A stretch of DNA of 64,000 nt from the NCBI GenBank assembly GCA_002772535.1, contig PFDP01000014.1:165481-229480 (forward strand), written 5' to 3'. Shown here piece after piece: positions 40,727 to 48,278 of the stretch. Source of the stretch: Candidatus Peregrinibacteria bacterium CG10_big_fil_rev_8_21_14_0_10_36_19 (GTDB taxonomy: Bacteria; Patescibacteriota; Gracilibacteria; UBA1369; LOWO2-01-FULL-3). Within the stretch, counting starts at the first letter, position 1; the number at the start of each line of letters is the position of its first letter. The notes beneath the pieces were generated by a model. The model was given only the letters and a program-made list of their open reading frames with translations. It had not been told where the DNA came from and ran no database searches. The position numbers and the translations under genes are program-made.

Positions 40727-40999
40727 CTATCTTCTTTTCATAGGCGGCGTAACACCACCAACAGGATTTACAAAAGACTCACTTTCAAAAGATCCACTTT
40801 TAAAATCATCACCAACCTTCATTGGAGGTGTAACACCACCAACAGGCTCACCCTGCTCTACCTTACACCTACTAAAATTCCATCTAAACGAGTTCACAGA
40901 ACCCTCATCAGTATTTCCATTTATATACAAAACACCAAATAGCATAGCTGCTCCGAAAAACACACCAGCTACAAAAGTTAACATCATTTTTCTATTCAT
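40727..40999 (-). CDS. Small membrane protein with a duplicated PVGGVTPPMK peptide
   Basis: A 90-residue protein with a membrane helix at about 7-26, then a polar tail. The decapeptide PVGGVTPPMK occurs twice, at 52-61 and at 79-88, the second just before a C-terminal RR. Identical repetition in so short a protein suggests a binding or processing motif. I do not recognise a family. It is convergent with the STAND ATPase gene (4-bp gap) and has no ribosome-binding site. Confidence 0.6.
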   Translation of the reverse strand: MNRKMMLTFVAGVFFGAAMLFGVLYINGNTDEGSVNSFRWNFSRCKVEQGEPVGGVTPPMKVGDDFKSGSFESESFVNPVGGVTPPMKRR

Positions 41000-41109: not shown

Positions 41110-42765
41110 ATGAAAAATATAACCAAAATTATTACAAGTTTAATAATATTTCTAATCAGTTCAACTCAAGCTTTAGCCTTCTACAGCGACGTAAACAGCA
41201 CTACACCATACTACGAATCAATCAAAAAGATGTATGAGGCTGGTCAGTTACCAGAATCGGCAAACTTCCAACCAAATGCAAAAATAACCACAGACGATCT
41301 TAAAGAGATACTAGAAAGCTACGGCAAACAAGAGCTAAACAAAAGCATCAAAATCAACTCATGGAGAAAAGATAAAGTACTAGTAAAACATCAAGCACTA
41401 AAAATAATTTTTGATGTCCTAGGCATTGGATATTCAAACTTTTTTGATAAAACATCATTTCCTTTCAAAGATCTAAACCCAGAATCACCTATTGCCGCAA
41501 TTGCGCAAAAGGCATCAGAAATTGGAATTTTGGAAAGCGACAACACTGCAATGTTTCGCATGGCAAAAACAGTAACAAAAGCCGAAATAATAGACTACAT
41601 TCAAAAAATAAAAACCTTTGATCCTAAAGCAGTTCCACAAACAACAACACCAAAAGCAATTACAATTCAACTAACACCATCAACAAACAACCTAAGCCAA
41701 ACAGACCAAGAACTACTAAACAATCCAAACTTCAAAACATTCCTTGATGTATGGAAAAAGTTAAAAACAGAATACTACTACAAAAACGACGCCGATTTCG
41801 ACAAACTAATCCTTAACGCAACAGAAGGCCTAGTAAAAGACAATGGCGACATCTACACAGTCTTTCAAAAACCAGACGATGCCCACAAATTTCTCCAAGT
41901 ATTATCAAACGAATACGAAGGAGTAGGAATGAGCCTAGAAATGATTGATGAACACGCCACAATAGTTTCACCTTTCATAGGTTCACCAGCCGAACAAGCA
42001 GGCCTACAAGCAGGAGATATTATTATAAAAATTAATGACGAAGACATCAGGGGTCTAAATCTTCAGACAATTGTAAATAAAATTAAAGGACCAGCAAACA
42101 CCTCAGTAAAAATAACCATTACCAGAAATGGAGTAGAACAAACTTACAATGTAAAACGCCAACTCATTAACTACAAAGATGTTCAATACAAAACAATAGA
42201 AAAAAATGGCAAAAAAATTGGATACATCCAAATTACAACATTCTCACAAAGCACTTACAACAATTTTGTTGAAGCAATAAAAGATCTCAATAATCAAAAC
42301 ATTAGCGGTTATATAATAGACTTAAGAAACAACCCAGGAGGATATCTAGATAGCGCAATTCACATAATTGGAACATTTGTAGGACGCGATAAAAAAGCAG
42401 TAGAACTACACTATGCAAACGGGACTATAGAACCATATACAACCAACACAGAAAAAATTGTTAAAGACTTACCAATAAAAATTCTTATCAACAAAGGAAG
42501 CGCATCAGCCTCAGAAATACTAGCTGGAGCACTCAAAGACTACAACATTGGCCAAAGCATAGGGGCAACCAGCTTTGGAAAAGGAAGCGTACAACAACTA
42601 TACACATACAAAGATGGATCTCTATTCAAATTCACAATCGCAAAATGGTTTACACCAAATGGCACATCAATAGATAAAAACGGGCTCAAACCAAACATCA
42701 CAATCGAAAGAAGTGAAACTGGAGACAATCAGTTAGAACAAGCACTAAGCCTTATTGCGAACTAA
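41110..42765 (+). CDS. S41 carboxyl-terminal processing protease with SLH-like repeats
   Basis: A 551-residue exported serine protease. Signal peptide 1-23 with cleavage after ALA. Residues 24-180 hold two segments like S-layer homology repeats: FYSDV..YYESIKKMYEAG and FKDLNPESPIAAIAQKASE, each followed by a TxxE/D..I pattern. Next come a PDZ domain (GSPAEQAGLQAGDIIIKIN) and the S41 core: IDLRNNPGGYLDSA, INKGSASASEILAGAL with the catalytic Ser, and SFGKGSVQ with the catalytic Lys. It would cut or mature exported proteins at the surface. Start at ATG 41110 gives a proper signal peptide; the earlier start is non-ATG. It overlaps the end of the convergent VirB4-like gene by 14 bp. Confidence 0.88.
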   Translation: MKNITKIITSLIIFLISSTQALAFYSDVNSTTPYYESIKKMYEAGQLPESANFQPNAKITTDDLKEILESYGKQELNKSIKINSWRKDKVLVKHQALKIIFDVLGIGYSNFFDKTSFPFKDLNPESPIAAIAQKASEIGILESDNTAMFRMAKTVTKAEIIDYIQKIKTFDPKAVPQTTTPKAITIQLTPSTNNLSQTDQELLNNPNFKTFLDVWKKLKTEYYYKNDADFDKLILNATEGLVKDNGDIYTVFQKPDDAHKFLQVLSNEYEGVGMSLEMIDEHATIVSPFIGSPAEQAGLQAGDIIIKINDEDIRGLNLQTIVNKIKGPANTSVKITITRNGVEQTYNVKRQLINYKDVQYKTIEKNGKKIGYIQITTFSQSTYNNFVEAIKDLNNQNISGYIIDLRNNPGGYLDSAIHIIGTFVGRDKKAVELHYANGTIEPYTTNTEKIVKDLPIKILINKGSASASEILAGALKDYNIGQSIGATSFGKGSVQQLYTYKDGSLFKFTIAKWFTPNGTSIDKNGLKPNITIERSETGDNQLEQALSLIAN

Positions 42766-45010
42766 CATCAGATGATGTTGATGCAGAAGAGTCATCCTGT
42801 CTTTTCTGTAAAATAGCCTCAGGATTTGTAGTCACAATCTTATCCTCCGTATAAGAAGCTATCACCTGTATAGCAACATGCTTTTGACCAGCAAAGAAAA
42901 GCCCTTGCCCAACACCACTATTCAAAAGTACATATTTTTCGCCTTCTGTAAGGTTAAAAATCTGCGCCAAAACGTCCACGGCAGAAGGCGCCTGCTTCAA
43001 AAGCAACTGAATAGAAGAATTCGTAATAATAGGTTTTCCATAATCACTTTTAACGAAATCCTCAACATCCTGAGTAATAGTAGAAACTCCCAAGTAATAT
43101 TTACGAGCACGCTTCACAAGACCAAACAAGAATTTTGCACTATCTTCATGCTGCATCATTGTCCAGGCCTCATCAACCACCAATACACGCTTTTTAAGCT
43201 CACTACGAACCTGATTCCAAATATAATTAAGAATTATATACATGGCCGTAGGTCTTAAAGCATCTTCCAAATCTCTAATACAGAAAACCATCATTCCACC
43301 ACTCAAATCCACATTTGTAGGCTTATTAAAGATTCCAGAATAAGAACCCTCTGTATATTTAGCAAGCCTTTGAACCAAAGACTCCGCCCCTTGCATAGAA
43401 CCCAAAATTTGATACAAATCCTGCATTGTAGGCGGCTCAAAATCACCAGGATTTACTTGTTCCATAGTAATTCCCTTTAAAGCATAAACATCAAGCAATG
43501 CCTTATCCAAAATCCCCTCTTCCTCAGGAGTAAGACCACCAAGCATCAATTTAAGAAGACCCATCAATGTAATAACATTAGATCTCAAAATATCACCAGG
43601 CTGAACATCATCACCATCAAAAGACTTAGGCAAATCAAAAGGATTGATACGTCTATCACTATTCAAACTTAGCTTCAAATAAGATCCTCCAACAGCATTA
43701 GCTAAAGCCTCATACTCGTTTTCTGGATCAACAACAATCACATCCGTCCCCATCATCATTAAACGCAAAATTTCAAGCTTCACAGCGTAAGATTTACCGG
43801 CACCAGACTTAGCAAAAATAACACTATTCGCATTTTCAAGTGCAAACCTATCAAAAATTACCAAACTATCATTATGGCGATTAAGACCATACAAAATACC
43901 TTTATCAGAAGTTAAATCTGAAGAAGTAAAAGGAAAAGTTGTAGAAAGTGGACCAGTGTTCATATTCCTAATAGTGTAAAGCTCGTCTAAACACATAGGA
44001 ATTGAAGAGTTAAATGCCTGTTCGGCTTGCAATTGCGCTCTTTTAGTCATCACAAGTTTACCAGCCAGCAAACTTTCAAGCTGTTTAGCAACCTTTTCCA
44101 GCTTCTTTTTATCATCAGAATACATTGTAAAATACAAAGCAAACTGGAAAAATTTTTCTTGACCTCTCTGAATTTGAGTTCTCAAAGTTTCCGCATCCTC
44201 TAAAGCAGTTTCCAAGGCAGGATCGCGCACTTGCCCCTTTTCGGCATTCATTCTCATACTAGATTGCATCTGAGCAACCTTCTTTTTCAAAGTTTTCATA
44301 ATTTGCTCAGAACTAATTGGATATATAAATTGAGATATATCCATAGTCACATCAAAATTAATCACAGGAGAAAGCCAATTTGCATCCAGATAACGAGGAT
44401 AAGCATATACATAAAAACTTTGTGTATAAACACCATCTATTTTAATAGAATCATATCTAATATCCATTGACGAAGGAGAAATCAAATCTTTAATAGAAGA
44501 AAGACCCTCTTGATAGATTTTTTCAGCTTCCAAATACTCTTTTTTCTCCTTTTCACTTATCGAACCACTTGCATTATCTACTTTATCAGCAATGTTTTTA
44601 TTTTTTGAATCACTAATAGAAAACAAACCTTTAACTTTATCAAACACAGACTGTTTTTTTAAAGCCTCAGGATCAACATCTTTTTTAATATCAGCAGAAA
44701 CTTTCATACCAGTATTAGGATCATAACCAGCTTCTTTAAGCTTAAATGCAGCGTCCTCATTAGCTTTCTCAACCACCTCTAAAGATGGTGTTACTTCAAT
44801 TGTAGACGAAGGATCATTCCCAAGTTCAGTAGCAGTAGGCTTATCAGCACGCAAATCTAACCCAGCAATTCCAAGGTCAGAAGTTTTATCAGCAGCATCA
44901 GCAAGCCAAGCCGGCGTAGAAGAATCTTCACTCAAATTACGTGTAAAAACCGCATTATCCTTCTTCAATTCACCAGTATTGTTTTGTGTTTGTGTTTGTT
45001 TTGTATCCAT
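42752..45010 (-). CDS. VirB4/TraC-like conjugation ATPase
   Basis: A 752-residue protein of the VirB4/TraC ATPase family, which powers type IV secretion and conjugative pilus assembly. The first 150 residues are charged and low in complexity. Walker A is IFAKSGAGKSYAVK near 405, followed by DPENEYEALA; Walker B is RVLVVDEAWTMM near 611, and the C-terminal motif TQDVEDFV is also typical. No VirB6, VirD4 or other type IV partners are next to it, so it may serve a reduced DNA- or protein-moving machine. A TGC-TATAAT promoter (45032-45037) lies 21 bp before the ATG. Confidence 0.88.
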   Translation of the reverse strand: MDTKQTQTQNNTGELKKDNAVFTRNLSEDSSTPAWLADAADKTSDLGIAGLDLRADKPTATELGNDPSSTIEVTPSLEVVEKANEDAAFKLKEAGYDPNTGMKVSADIKKDVDPEALKKQSVFDKVKGLFSISDSKNKNIADKVDNASGSISEKEKKEYLEAEKIYQEGLSSIKDLISPSSMDIRYDSIKIDGVYTQSFYVYAYPRYLDANWLSPVINFDVTMDISQFIYPISSEQIMKTLKKKVAQMQSSMRMNAEKGQVRDPALETALEDAETLRTQIQRGQEKFFQFALYFTMYSDDKKKLEKVAKQLESLLAGKLVMTKRAQLQAEQAFNSSIPMCLDELYTIRNMNTGPLSTTFPFTSSDLTSDKGILYGLNRHNDSLVIFDRFALENANSVIFAKSGAGKSYAVKLEILRLMMMGTDVIVVDPENEYEALANAVGGSYLKLSLNSDRRINPFDLPKSFDGDDVQPGDILRSNVITLMGLLKLMLGGLTPEEEGILDKALLDVYALKGITMEQVNPGDFEPPTMQDLYQILGSMQGAESLVQRLAKYTEGSYSGIFNKPTNVDLSGGMMVFCIRDLEDALRPTAMYIILNYIWNQVRSELKKRVLVVDEAWTMMQHEDSAKFLFGLVKRARKYYLGVSTITQDVEDFVKSDYGKPIITNSSIQLLLKQAPSAVDVLAQIFNLTEGEKYVLLNSGVGQGLFFAGQKHVAIQVIASYTEDKIVTTNPEAILQKRQDDSSASTSSDVSSQ

Positions 45011-45089
45011 TTATTTGAAATTTATCTCATTATTATAGCAAAAAAACACATTTTTTACAATAGAGATAAAGTGGAAAAAACAACAAGAT

Positions 45090-45496
45090 GACAAAAACGG
45101 TCATGCGTAGGGGTGGTGGCGCGCTATCAGCGCGCCACCACCCCCCGCATATGTAGACAAACACCTTTCGACGCCCGTCTACACCCCCCCTCACCCTTTT
45201 AGTCAGGCGAGGAAAGTTTTGTGAGGGGAGCTGCGAAAAAACCGCAGCTCACAGTGCAGACCTGCGAAAAAATCGCAACAGTACACACTGGTGTTGGAAC
45301 TTCATCAGAAGCTCTACAACAGCACCCTCGATCGATACCAACAAGGTTGGTTTATCAATCATCAAAATTTGATAACTAATAAACCAACCCTGAAATTTTC
45401 ATCATCTTGTTGTCAAAACTGTAAATGGTGTATACAGATCAGTCATCAAGACAACCAGCATAACAAACCACAATCAGTACTGAGCAAAACTCAGTG
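45090..45496 (-). ncRNA. Candidate structured non-coding RNA of unknown family
   Basis: A 628-bp gap before gyrA holds no protein gene. Its minus strand has a consensus promoter and, from the expected start near 45495, at least seven hairpins in order: ACTGAG/CTCAGT, an 11-bp stem GGTTGGTTTAT/ATAAACCAACC, TGCGA/TCGCA, GAGCTGCG/CGCAGCTC, CCCTCAC/GTGAGGG, GTAGAC/GTCTAC and a 15-bp GC-rich hairpin, then a T-run. Base composition is much more GC-rich than the neighbours. RNase P RNA, tmRNA and SRP RNA signatures were looked for and not found. Ends are inferred. Confidence 0.6.
45103..45150 (-). terminator. GC-rich hairpin ending the candidate ncRNA
   Basis: Perfect 15-bp stem (45110-45124 with 45130-45144) around the loop TGATA, extended by ATGCG/CGCAT, in an otherwise AT-rich genome. 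On the minus strand a TTTTT run follows about 12 nt later (45093-45097), so it is a non-standard terminator or a stable 3' domain. Confidence 0.55.
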
Positions 45497-45501
45497 CAAA
45501 G

Positions 45502-45530
45502 AATATAAAAACAAAAACAAAAAATGTCAA
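45502..45530 (-). promoter_or_regulatory. Promoter of the candidate ncRNA
   Basis: Minus strand TTGACA (45525-45530), 17-bp T-rich spacer, TATATT (45502-45507). The expected start falls at the base of the first hairpin. Confidence 0.75.
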
Positions 45531-45638: not shown

Positions 45639-48278
45639 ATGGCTAACCAAGACGAAAATAAGCACAACCCCGAAGAAAAAGATCAACAAGAAAACGACGA
45701 AATAGAAGAAACAGAAGAGGATATTGACGATCAAGAACCAGAACTATTTACAGGAAATCAAGAAGCCGGAGGCAACCTACACGATGCCAACATTACCAAT
45801 GAAATGGAAAACTCTTATCTAGAGTATGCCATGAGCGTAATCGTATCCAGAGCCCTTCCAGATGTAAGAGACGGTCTCAAGCCAGTTCACAGGCGTATTC
45901 TTTATGCCATGAACGATATGGGATTAAGATCCTCAAGTTCATTCCGCAAATCAGCATCTGTAGTCGGAGAAGTGTTAGCAAAGTACCATCCACACGGTGA
46001 TTCCGCTGTATACGACTCAATGGTAAGAATGGCTCAGGACTTTTCAATGAGATATGAGCTAGTACGCGGACAAGGAAACTTTGGATCAATAGACGGAGAC
46101 GGCGCAGCCGCAATGCGTTACACAGAGGCAAAAATGGAAAAAATTACGGACGAAATGATGGCAGACATCGATAAAGAAACCGTAAACTGGAGAGATAACT
46201 ATGACGGAAGATATAAAGAACCAGTAGTACTACCAACAAAAGTACCTCAATTATTATTAAATGGTACAACAGGAATTGCGGTTGGTATGGCCACATCAAT
46301 CCCCCCTCACAACCTAGGAGAGCTAATTGATGGAGTTATGCACCTATCAAATCACCCCGAAGCAACAATCGACGACCTTATGCAATACATCAAAGGTCCA
46401 GATTTCCCAACGGGAGGTTTAATATACTCAACAGCAGACATAAAAACTGCATACGCAACAGGGCGTGGCGGAATGGTTTGTAGAGCAAAAACAGAAATTC
46501 AAGAAAGAAAAGGTGGTAAATACGCAATAATTGTCACAGAAATACCGTATCAAGTAAACAAATCAAACTTAGTAAGCAAAATTGCCGACCTAGTTCGTGA
46601 TAAAAAAGTACTCGGTATCACAGATATCAGAGATGAATCTAACAAAGACGGTATTAGAGTTGTTATTGAACTAAAAAAGGACAGCTACCCTAAAAAAATT
46701 CTAAATCAACTTTTCAAATACACTCAATTACAAAGTTCATTCAACATGAACCTAATTGCACTAGTAGACGAAATACAACCTCACCTACTAGATCTTAAAC
46801 AAGTACTCGAACACTTTATTTCACACAGAAAAGAAGTAATCACAAGACGCACAATTTACGACCTCAAAATAGCAAAAGCTCGTGCACATATCCTTGAAGG
46901 ACTAAAAATTGCACTAGATTCAATTGATGCAGTAATTGCAACAATCAGAAAAGCACCAACAAAAGAAGATGCTCTTTCAGCATTAATGAAACAATTCAAA
47001 CTTTCAGAAGAACAAGGTAAAGCCATTCTTGAAATGCGTCTACAAACACTTGCAGGGCTTGAAAGACAAAAAATTGAAAACGAATTAGCAGAAAAACTAG
47101 CACTGATCACAGAATTAGAAGGAATACTAGCAGATACAGGAAAAGTACTAAAAATAATGCAAGATGAACTAGCCGAAATAAAAGAAAAATACAACGACGA
47201 ACGCCGTACAGAAATAATTCCAAACGCCGTAAACAGCATTTCACAAAAAGACACAATTCCAAACGAACCAATGATCGTAATGTTAAGCCGTGAAAACTAC
47301 ATTAAGCGTATACCTCCAAGCACATTTAAAGCACAAAACCGTGGAGGAAAAGGAGTTATAGGCGGAAAAACAAAGGAAGAAGATGAAATCAAACTTATAC
47401 GCCAAGCCAATAATCATGATGAACTTCTATATTTCACAAATAAAGGAAGAGTTTTCAAACTACCAGTATACGAAATACCAGTAGCATCAAGACAAGCAAA
47501 AGGACAAGCAGTCGTAAATCTACTTCAATTACAAGAAGATGAGTATGTGACAGCAATATTAAATGCAAAAGAGAACTTCACAGGTGAATTCTTAATCATG
47601 GCAACAACCACAGGTACAATCAAAAAAACGCCAGTAAAAGATTTTGAAAACGTAAGAAAAACCGGACTTATAGCAATTAAATTAAGAGATAATGACTCAC
47701 TTGAATGGGTAAGAGAAGTATCCCCTGGCAATGAAGTTATAATCATTACCAAGAGCGGAAAAAGCATTAGATTTAACGAAGACGATGCACGCTCAATGGG
47801 CAGAGCCTCAATCGGAGTAAGAGGAATACGCCTAAGAAGTGACGACACAGTAGTAGAAATGGATGTAATTGATGACCCAGAAAACACCTCCTTACTAGTT
47901 GTTATGGAAAATGGGCTTGGAAAAATGACAAAAATTACCGATTACAGAATTCAAACAAGAGGCGGAACAGGTGTAAAAACCGCAAATGTAACAAACAAAA
48001 CAGGACAAGTTATAGGTGCAAAAGTAATAGCAAAAACAACAGATGCAGATCTAATTATGATTTCTAAAAGCGGACAAGTAATACGCCTTCACTCACAACA
48101 CATTCCTTCACAGGGGCGTGCAACGCAAGGAGTTTACCTAATGCGCCTAAGACCAACGGACAAAGTTGCCTCAATATCACTTATGCAAAGAGAAATTGAA
48201 GACGACGAGGCTCTAAACGATGCACAATCATCAATAATTATCGATCAAGAGGAAGACACATCAATAGCTAACGCTTAA
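45639..48278 (+). CDS. gyrA: DNA gyrase subunit A
   Basis: GyrA forms the DNA-cutting core of gyrase with GyrB. The 879 residues begin with an acidic extension of about 40 residues, then [28 protein letters not shown] and the catalytic tyrosine in [10 protein letters not shown]. The C-terminal beta-pinwheel contains QNRGGKG, a GyrA-box variant, which favours gyrase over topoisomerase IV. A short acidic tail ends the protein. A TAAAAT hexamer lies about 25 bp before the ATG; no ribosome-binding site. Confidence 0.96.

Follow-up and report, generated by a model that had tools for sequence, protein, structure and literature searches.

What does the DNA between virB4 and gyrA encode in this 1.07-Mb Patescibacteria genome? 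To judge by its nearest virB4 relatives, most of which bear that name, the bacterium is Peregrinibacteria-like. In the window, by which the whole 64-kb stretch analyzed here is meant, the gap measures 628 bp. The first-pass annotation had placed in it, at 45090-45530, a structured RNA of roughly 400 nt belonging to no known family, enriched in GC and devoid of an ORF, with a VirB4-like gene downstream on the same strand and a divergent gyrA. The neighbors could be identified as genes for a VirB4/TraC-type ATPase (minus strand) and gyrase A (plus strand), and the composition was as described: the GC content of the element is 0.45, compared with 0.34-0.38 nearby, and no ORF of at least 60 aa is present on the minus strand of the gap. 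The sole listed ORF in the gap is a 107-aa GTG frame on the strand opposite to the RNA. The best reading of the locus remains close to the original one, namely a structured RNA of approximately 420 nt that has no match in Rfam and shows compensatory changes in its relatives. We consider it fairly likely that the gap carries a free-standing gene for this non-coding RNA and that the RNA belongs, as the small member, to a new family of very rare RNAs.

A predicted RNA gene on the minus strand

Judged by its sequence, the minus strand of the gap looks like an independent transcription unit running from approximately 45496 to 45075. It starts behind the consensus promoter TTGACA-17-TATATT that had been reported earlier, which is indeed present at 45530-45502, is of the sigma-70 type and has 11 of 12 consensus matches; a promoter of equal quality occurred in 1.7 % of dinucleotide shuffles of the gap. 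We infer that the RNA gene is transcribed. The original placement of the RNA held, but its 3' end had to be moved from 45090 to approximately 45075, because the closing arm and a U-run lie there. The features of the locus, all on the minus strand except gyrA, are as follows.

42752-45010, minus: neighboring gene for the VirB4/TraC-type ATPase
45032-45060, minus: virB4 promoter TTGTAA-17-TATAAT, separate from the RNA promoter and downstream of the RNA end
45075-45496, minus: predicted RNA gene, its start placed from the promoter and its end from the closing helix and the U-run
45075-45079, minus: U-run after the closing helix, a possible terminator tail judged from sequence
45080-45091, minus: 3' arm of the closing helix, UCAUCUUGUUGU, pairing with 45402-45413
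45104-45150, minus: H9, GC-rich hairpin near the 3' end with a perfect 16-bp core and a 5-bp extension
45152-45183, minus: H8, 14-bp hairpin with a GAAA loop, 5 G-U pairs and 0 A-C mismatches
45185-45216, minus: H7, predicted hairpin in which CUUUCCUCGCCU pairs with AGGGUGAGGGGG
45228-45250, minus: H6, GAGCUGCG hairpin with a U-run in its loop
45252-45290, minus: H5, predicted hairpin with a U-run in its loop
45292-45321, minus: H4, predicted hairpin
45342-45392, minus: H3, 24-bp hairpin with 4 G-U pairs
45402-45419, minus: GUUUUGACAACAAGAUGA, containing the 14-mer identical in the g14 RNAs (see below) and the 5' closing arm (45402-45413)
45418-45478, minus: H2, multi-part helix whose basal ACUG-CAGU pairs stop right at UUUUGACAACAAG
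45479-45495, minus: H1, predicted 5' hairpin ACUGAGU-UUU-GCUCAGU
45502-45530, minus: sigma-70 type promoter of the RNA
45639-48278, plus: gyrA, the divergent neighbor

Folding of the minus strand from 45090 to 45492 yields -192.9 kcal/mol, against -118 +/- 5 kcal/mol in shuffled sequences (z = -13.8), while the plus strand of the element reaches only -137 kcal/mol. When both strands between 5.5 and 63.6 kb, a range outside which the rRNA genes lie, were scanned in 400-nt windows at 200-nt steps, the element ranked first with -192.6 kcal/mol, the best other site being at -120.5 kcal/mol.

From 5' to 3', the RNA consists of H1, H2 ending in CAGU, the sequence UUUUG, the closing arm ACAACAAGAUGA, hairpins H3 to H9, the 3' arm and the U-run. 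Where seven or more hairpins had been claimed, eight local ones (H1 and H3-H9) were counted in addition to the multi-part helix H2 and a long-range closing helix. The two hairpins with poly-U loops were found again as H5 and H6, and the terminal GC hairpin with extension, thought to be of 15 bp, turned out to have the slightly longer core of H9. The closing helix had gone unnoticed before. It joins 45402-45413 to 45080-45091 and encloses most of the hairpins; a Watson-Crick helix of 12 bp spanning at least 300 nt was obtained in 4 of 20000 shuffles.

Two further observations concern the window. The 5' closing arm can also pair with sequence upstream of it, within 45402-45454 on the minus strand, by means of 15 Watson-Crick and 3 G-U pairs with 4 mismatches. 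At 40727-40999, likewise on the minus strand, a 90-aa ORF with a repeated VGGVTPPMK motif is present.

Stems in the DNA were also searched with a strand-symmetric score, in which G-T and A-C mismatches weigh equally. Read on the minus strand, the stems of the element contain 12 G-U pairs and 0 A-C mismatches (p = 0.0002). Taking the window RNA together with the three g14 homologues described below, the numbers are 81 and 14 (p about 6e-13). At a stricter setting, the corresponding numbers in a control region of the window were 14 and 27. The excess of G-U over A-C points to RNA rather than to a DNA palindrome, and an imbalance of this kind would be the expected trace of selection acting on a minus-strand RNA. 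A terminator or a simple cluster of DNA palindromes, considered as a candidate, would have no strand preference and was rejected on the counts for the window.

Proposed homologues at the same locus and their distribution

The virB4-gyrA arrangement is conserved across the family. In three genomes of another genus, g14 (L062, L078 and L063), the gap is 1.3-1.6 kb long and holds a structured region of 0.9-1.1 kb, with the RNA on the same strand as in the window and a folding energy of about -0.42 kcal/mol per nt. Upstream of the RNA, all three have the promoter-like sequence TTGACT-16-TATGAT, identified by direct reading. These homologues were found by reading the syntenic gap and not by a DNA similarity search; their homology to the window RNA is proposed on the grounds of short sequence identity and anatomy.

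The common framework, at an identical locus and on the same strand, is a helix directly 5' of UUUUGACAACAAGR, together with a closing helix from this sequence to YCUUGUUGU. The 14-mer GUUUUGACAACAAG occupies the same structural position in both groups, and the 3' arm CUUGUUGU is also common to them. The 14-mer alone is not decisive, as 14 of 3000 shuffles reach a length of at least 14; a common 13-mer that also pairs at least 250 nt downstream was seen once in 20000 shuffles. The g14 RNAs likewise have a hairpin immediately 5' of H2 and a GC-rich hairpin close to the 3' end. These comparisons support a common framework of H1, H2, UUUUGACAACAAGR, the closing helix and the GC-rich 3'-end hairpin.

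The earlier proposal to look for covariation in relatives bore fruit both in the helices common to the window and g14 and within g14. An A-U pair of the closing helix in the window is G-C in g14, and the base of H2, ACUG-CAGU in the window, has the counterpart CCUG-CAGG at the same position in g14; in each case both partners have changed and the pairing is retained. In a reciprocal fold test of L062 versus L078, two-sided pair-preserving changes were above, and broken pairs below, those in shuffles (p = 0.0045 or less), for the whole RNA as well as for the part outside the ORF that the g14 RNAs contain. The same comparison of L062 with the more divergent L063 was not significant, perhaps because the interior aligns poorly.

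A covariance model built from the g14 5' domain alone gave its best score in the 64-kb window at 45404-45498 on the minus strand. This ranking of the predicted place is supportive only: the window RNA scored 18.7 bits and the next, unrelated site 17.3 bits, and the model misses the window RNA in genome-wide searches.

The interior of the g14 RNAs is longer than that of the window RNA and includes a small ORF.

L062:901-1185, L078:2035-2319 and L063:2090-2362, inside the g14 RNAs: ORF of 90-94 aa

Its dN/dS is about 0.5 and its C-terminal part is conserved (DGHLVTTFKPDGG / NGHKVVLFRPDGG). No convincing family match was obtained for it, and searches of phages, plasmids and viral contigs yielded no relative. 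In L063, at about 2650-2720, the stretch that separates the g14 RNA from the virB4 promoter contains another TTGAC-like box, with a GC hairpin and a T-run behind it; a sequence akin to this is also present in L062 and L078.

Most relatives with a readable gap have only about 110-280 bp between the two genes and lack the element. In a VirB4 tree the window sequence is nearest to that of the genome G016, with modest support (81/80), and the gap in G016 is empty, at about 130 bp. Since the apparent nearest relative lacks it, the RNA is dispensable in the wider lineage. Either the RNA has been lost repeatedly or it has moved between the two genera. In two other relatives the gap contains unrelated genes with GGEEF motifs (L064:1910-2866 and L104:2137-2973), which indicates that it tolerates insertions. 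Two further loci were discarded: the gap of L060 holds small ORFs and not this RNA, and L005 was an unrelated promoter match.

The RNA occurs in one copy per genome, always at the same locus and on the same strand. DNA similarity searches with the window RNA against plasmids, phages and 89 genomes of the order returned only short matches at chance level. The pattern TTTTGACAACAAGR was found in 25 of 353 genomes of the class, little above its reversed control; the matches in the window and at the three g14 loci were the only ones with a fitting 3' arm and the expected surroundings. In the same 353 genomes, the g14 5' motif without mismatch was confined to g14. Viral contigs contained neither of two g14 motifs; 120 matches of a 15-mer in such contigs were examined and rejected, having no clear extended closing arm. 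A covariance-model search of 380 genomes of the phylum and 30 of the family yielded no member beyond the window and g14, although divergent members would be missed, since the model misses the window RNA itself.

A probable free-standing RNA and its alternatives

In the reading we prefer, the RNA would be driven by its own promoter and would end before the separate virB4 promoter. What is constant in it would be the 5' domain together with the closing helix; the variable insert would consist of the hairpins in the window RNA and of the longer interior and its small ORF in g14. Acting in trans, the RNA may serve as a folded scaffold or as the core of a ribonucleoprotein; this role, suggested with low confidence, is a guess drawn from analogy to other large orphan RNAs. 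The family is probably a new and very rare one of large structured bacterial RNAs. A broader proposal is offered more tentatively, at somewhat less than an even chance: these RNAs would represent a new class among the large bacterial RNAs, known to date from only two genera of one Patescibacteria family. A constant frame of 5' domain and long-range closing helix would surround an exchangeable interior, which would consist purely of RNA in one lineage and carry a small gene in the other.

Constant ends around interiors of differing size, with a small ORF in g14, could also belong to a mobile or decaying element with structure at the RNA level, intron-like or otherwise, whose insertion site is the virB4-gyrA gap and whose cargo varies. 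The patchy occurrence, the empty gaps of relatives and the unrelated genes found in some of them would fit such an element. Its single copy per genome, at an unchanging locus and strand, does not, nor does the lack of an Rfam match, introns included, or of relatives of the g14 ORF in phages, plasmids and viral contigs. We regard this explanation as unlikely.

Slightly less likely still is a cis-acting leader or attenuator, in which transcription from the RNA promoter would enter virB4 and the fold would control that gene, the closing arm possibly switching between its upstream partner and the 3' arm. The element does lie directly upstream of virB4 on the same strand, and the alternative pairing of the closing arm within 45402-45454 would permit a conformational switch; this pairing was not seen in the g14 relatives. 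Moreover, virB4 is present without the RNA in most relatives and has its own promoter past the RNA end, which lies approximately 15 nt ahead of the -35 box; by inspection, the promoter sequence resembles that in short-gap relatives lacking the RNA. It is because the RNA and virB4 have separate promoters that we infer a free-standing and not a cis-acting RNA. A DNA-level element, that is, a hairpin cluster for gyrase binding, a transfer origin or replication, for which the many inverted repeats between gyrA and a VirB4/TraC-type gene might speak, is very improbable given the one-strand excess of G-U over A-C, unexpected for a DNA palindrome, and the promoter on that same strand.

Retention of a 420-nt RNA in a genome of about 1 Mb suggests a function worth its cost. 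Few large structured bacterial RNAs of unknown function have been described, and our literature searches returned no paper joining non-coding RNA terms with these bacteria. A family with members of two sizes allows a simple comparison of constant and variable parts, for which the g14 genomes supply testable alignments.

Comparison with known large RNAs

Rfam 15 covers OLE, ROOL and GOLLD as well as group I and II introns, 6S and SRP RNA. At its gathering thresholds no match was found in the window gap or in the g14 loci, in keeping with the earlier assignment to no known family; at E-values up to 5 only partial hairpin matches appeared, far below gathering. RNase P RNA and tmRNA are similar in length to the element, but no tRNA-like or RNase P match is present there. 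That neither could be recognized had already been noted, and both were located elsewhere in the genome. RNase P RNA (RF00010), suspected from GAGGAAAGT on the plus strand, normally occurs once per genome, and the copy of this genome lies outside the window, at G000:C3:352355-352711. The marks of a tmRNA are tRNA-like ends and a tag frame; ARAGORN finds none at the locus, and the tmRNA (RF00023) of this genome is at G000:C10:26637-27042.

Like the element, GOLLD and ROOL are large, elaborately folded bacterial RNAs, and assembly into RNA-only cages is a trait of theirs. Their function is unknown, and both are described as RNAs of phages and prophages that often lie close to tRNA islands; in GOLLD, a linker able to hold tRNAs accompanies a conserved and a less conserved region (PMC12286853). 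In contrast to their phage or prophage setting, the element lies in a chromosomal virB4-gyrA gap and has no Rfam match. The nearest tRNA in the window is 29 kb away, and ARAGORN detected no tRNA in the loci checked.

OLE RNA, too, is a large structured orphan RNA whose precise biochemical role, like that of the element, is unknown. It is about 600 nt long, occurs mostly in Gram-positive bacteria and has known protein partners (PMC9723947, PMC12286853), in all of which it differs from the element, which is also without a match to it in Rfam. The element belongs to none of these three families, from which it differs in setting and sequence, but OLE, ROOL and GOLLD are the RNAs nearest to it in kind (PMC12286853).
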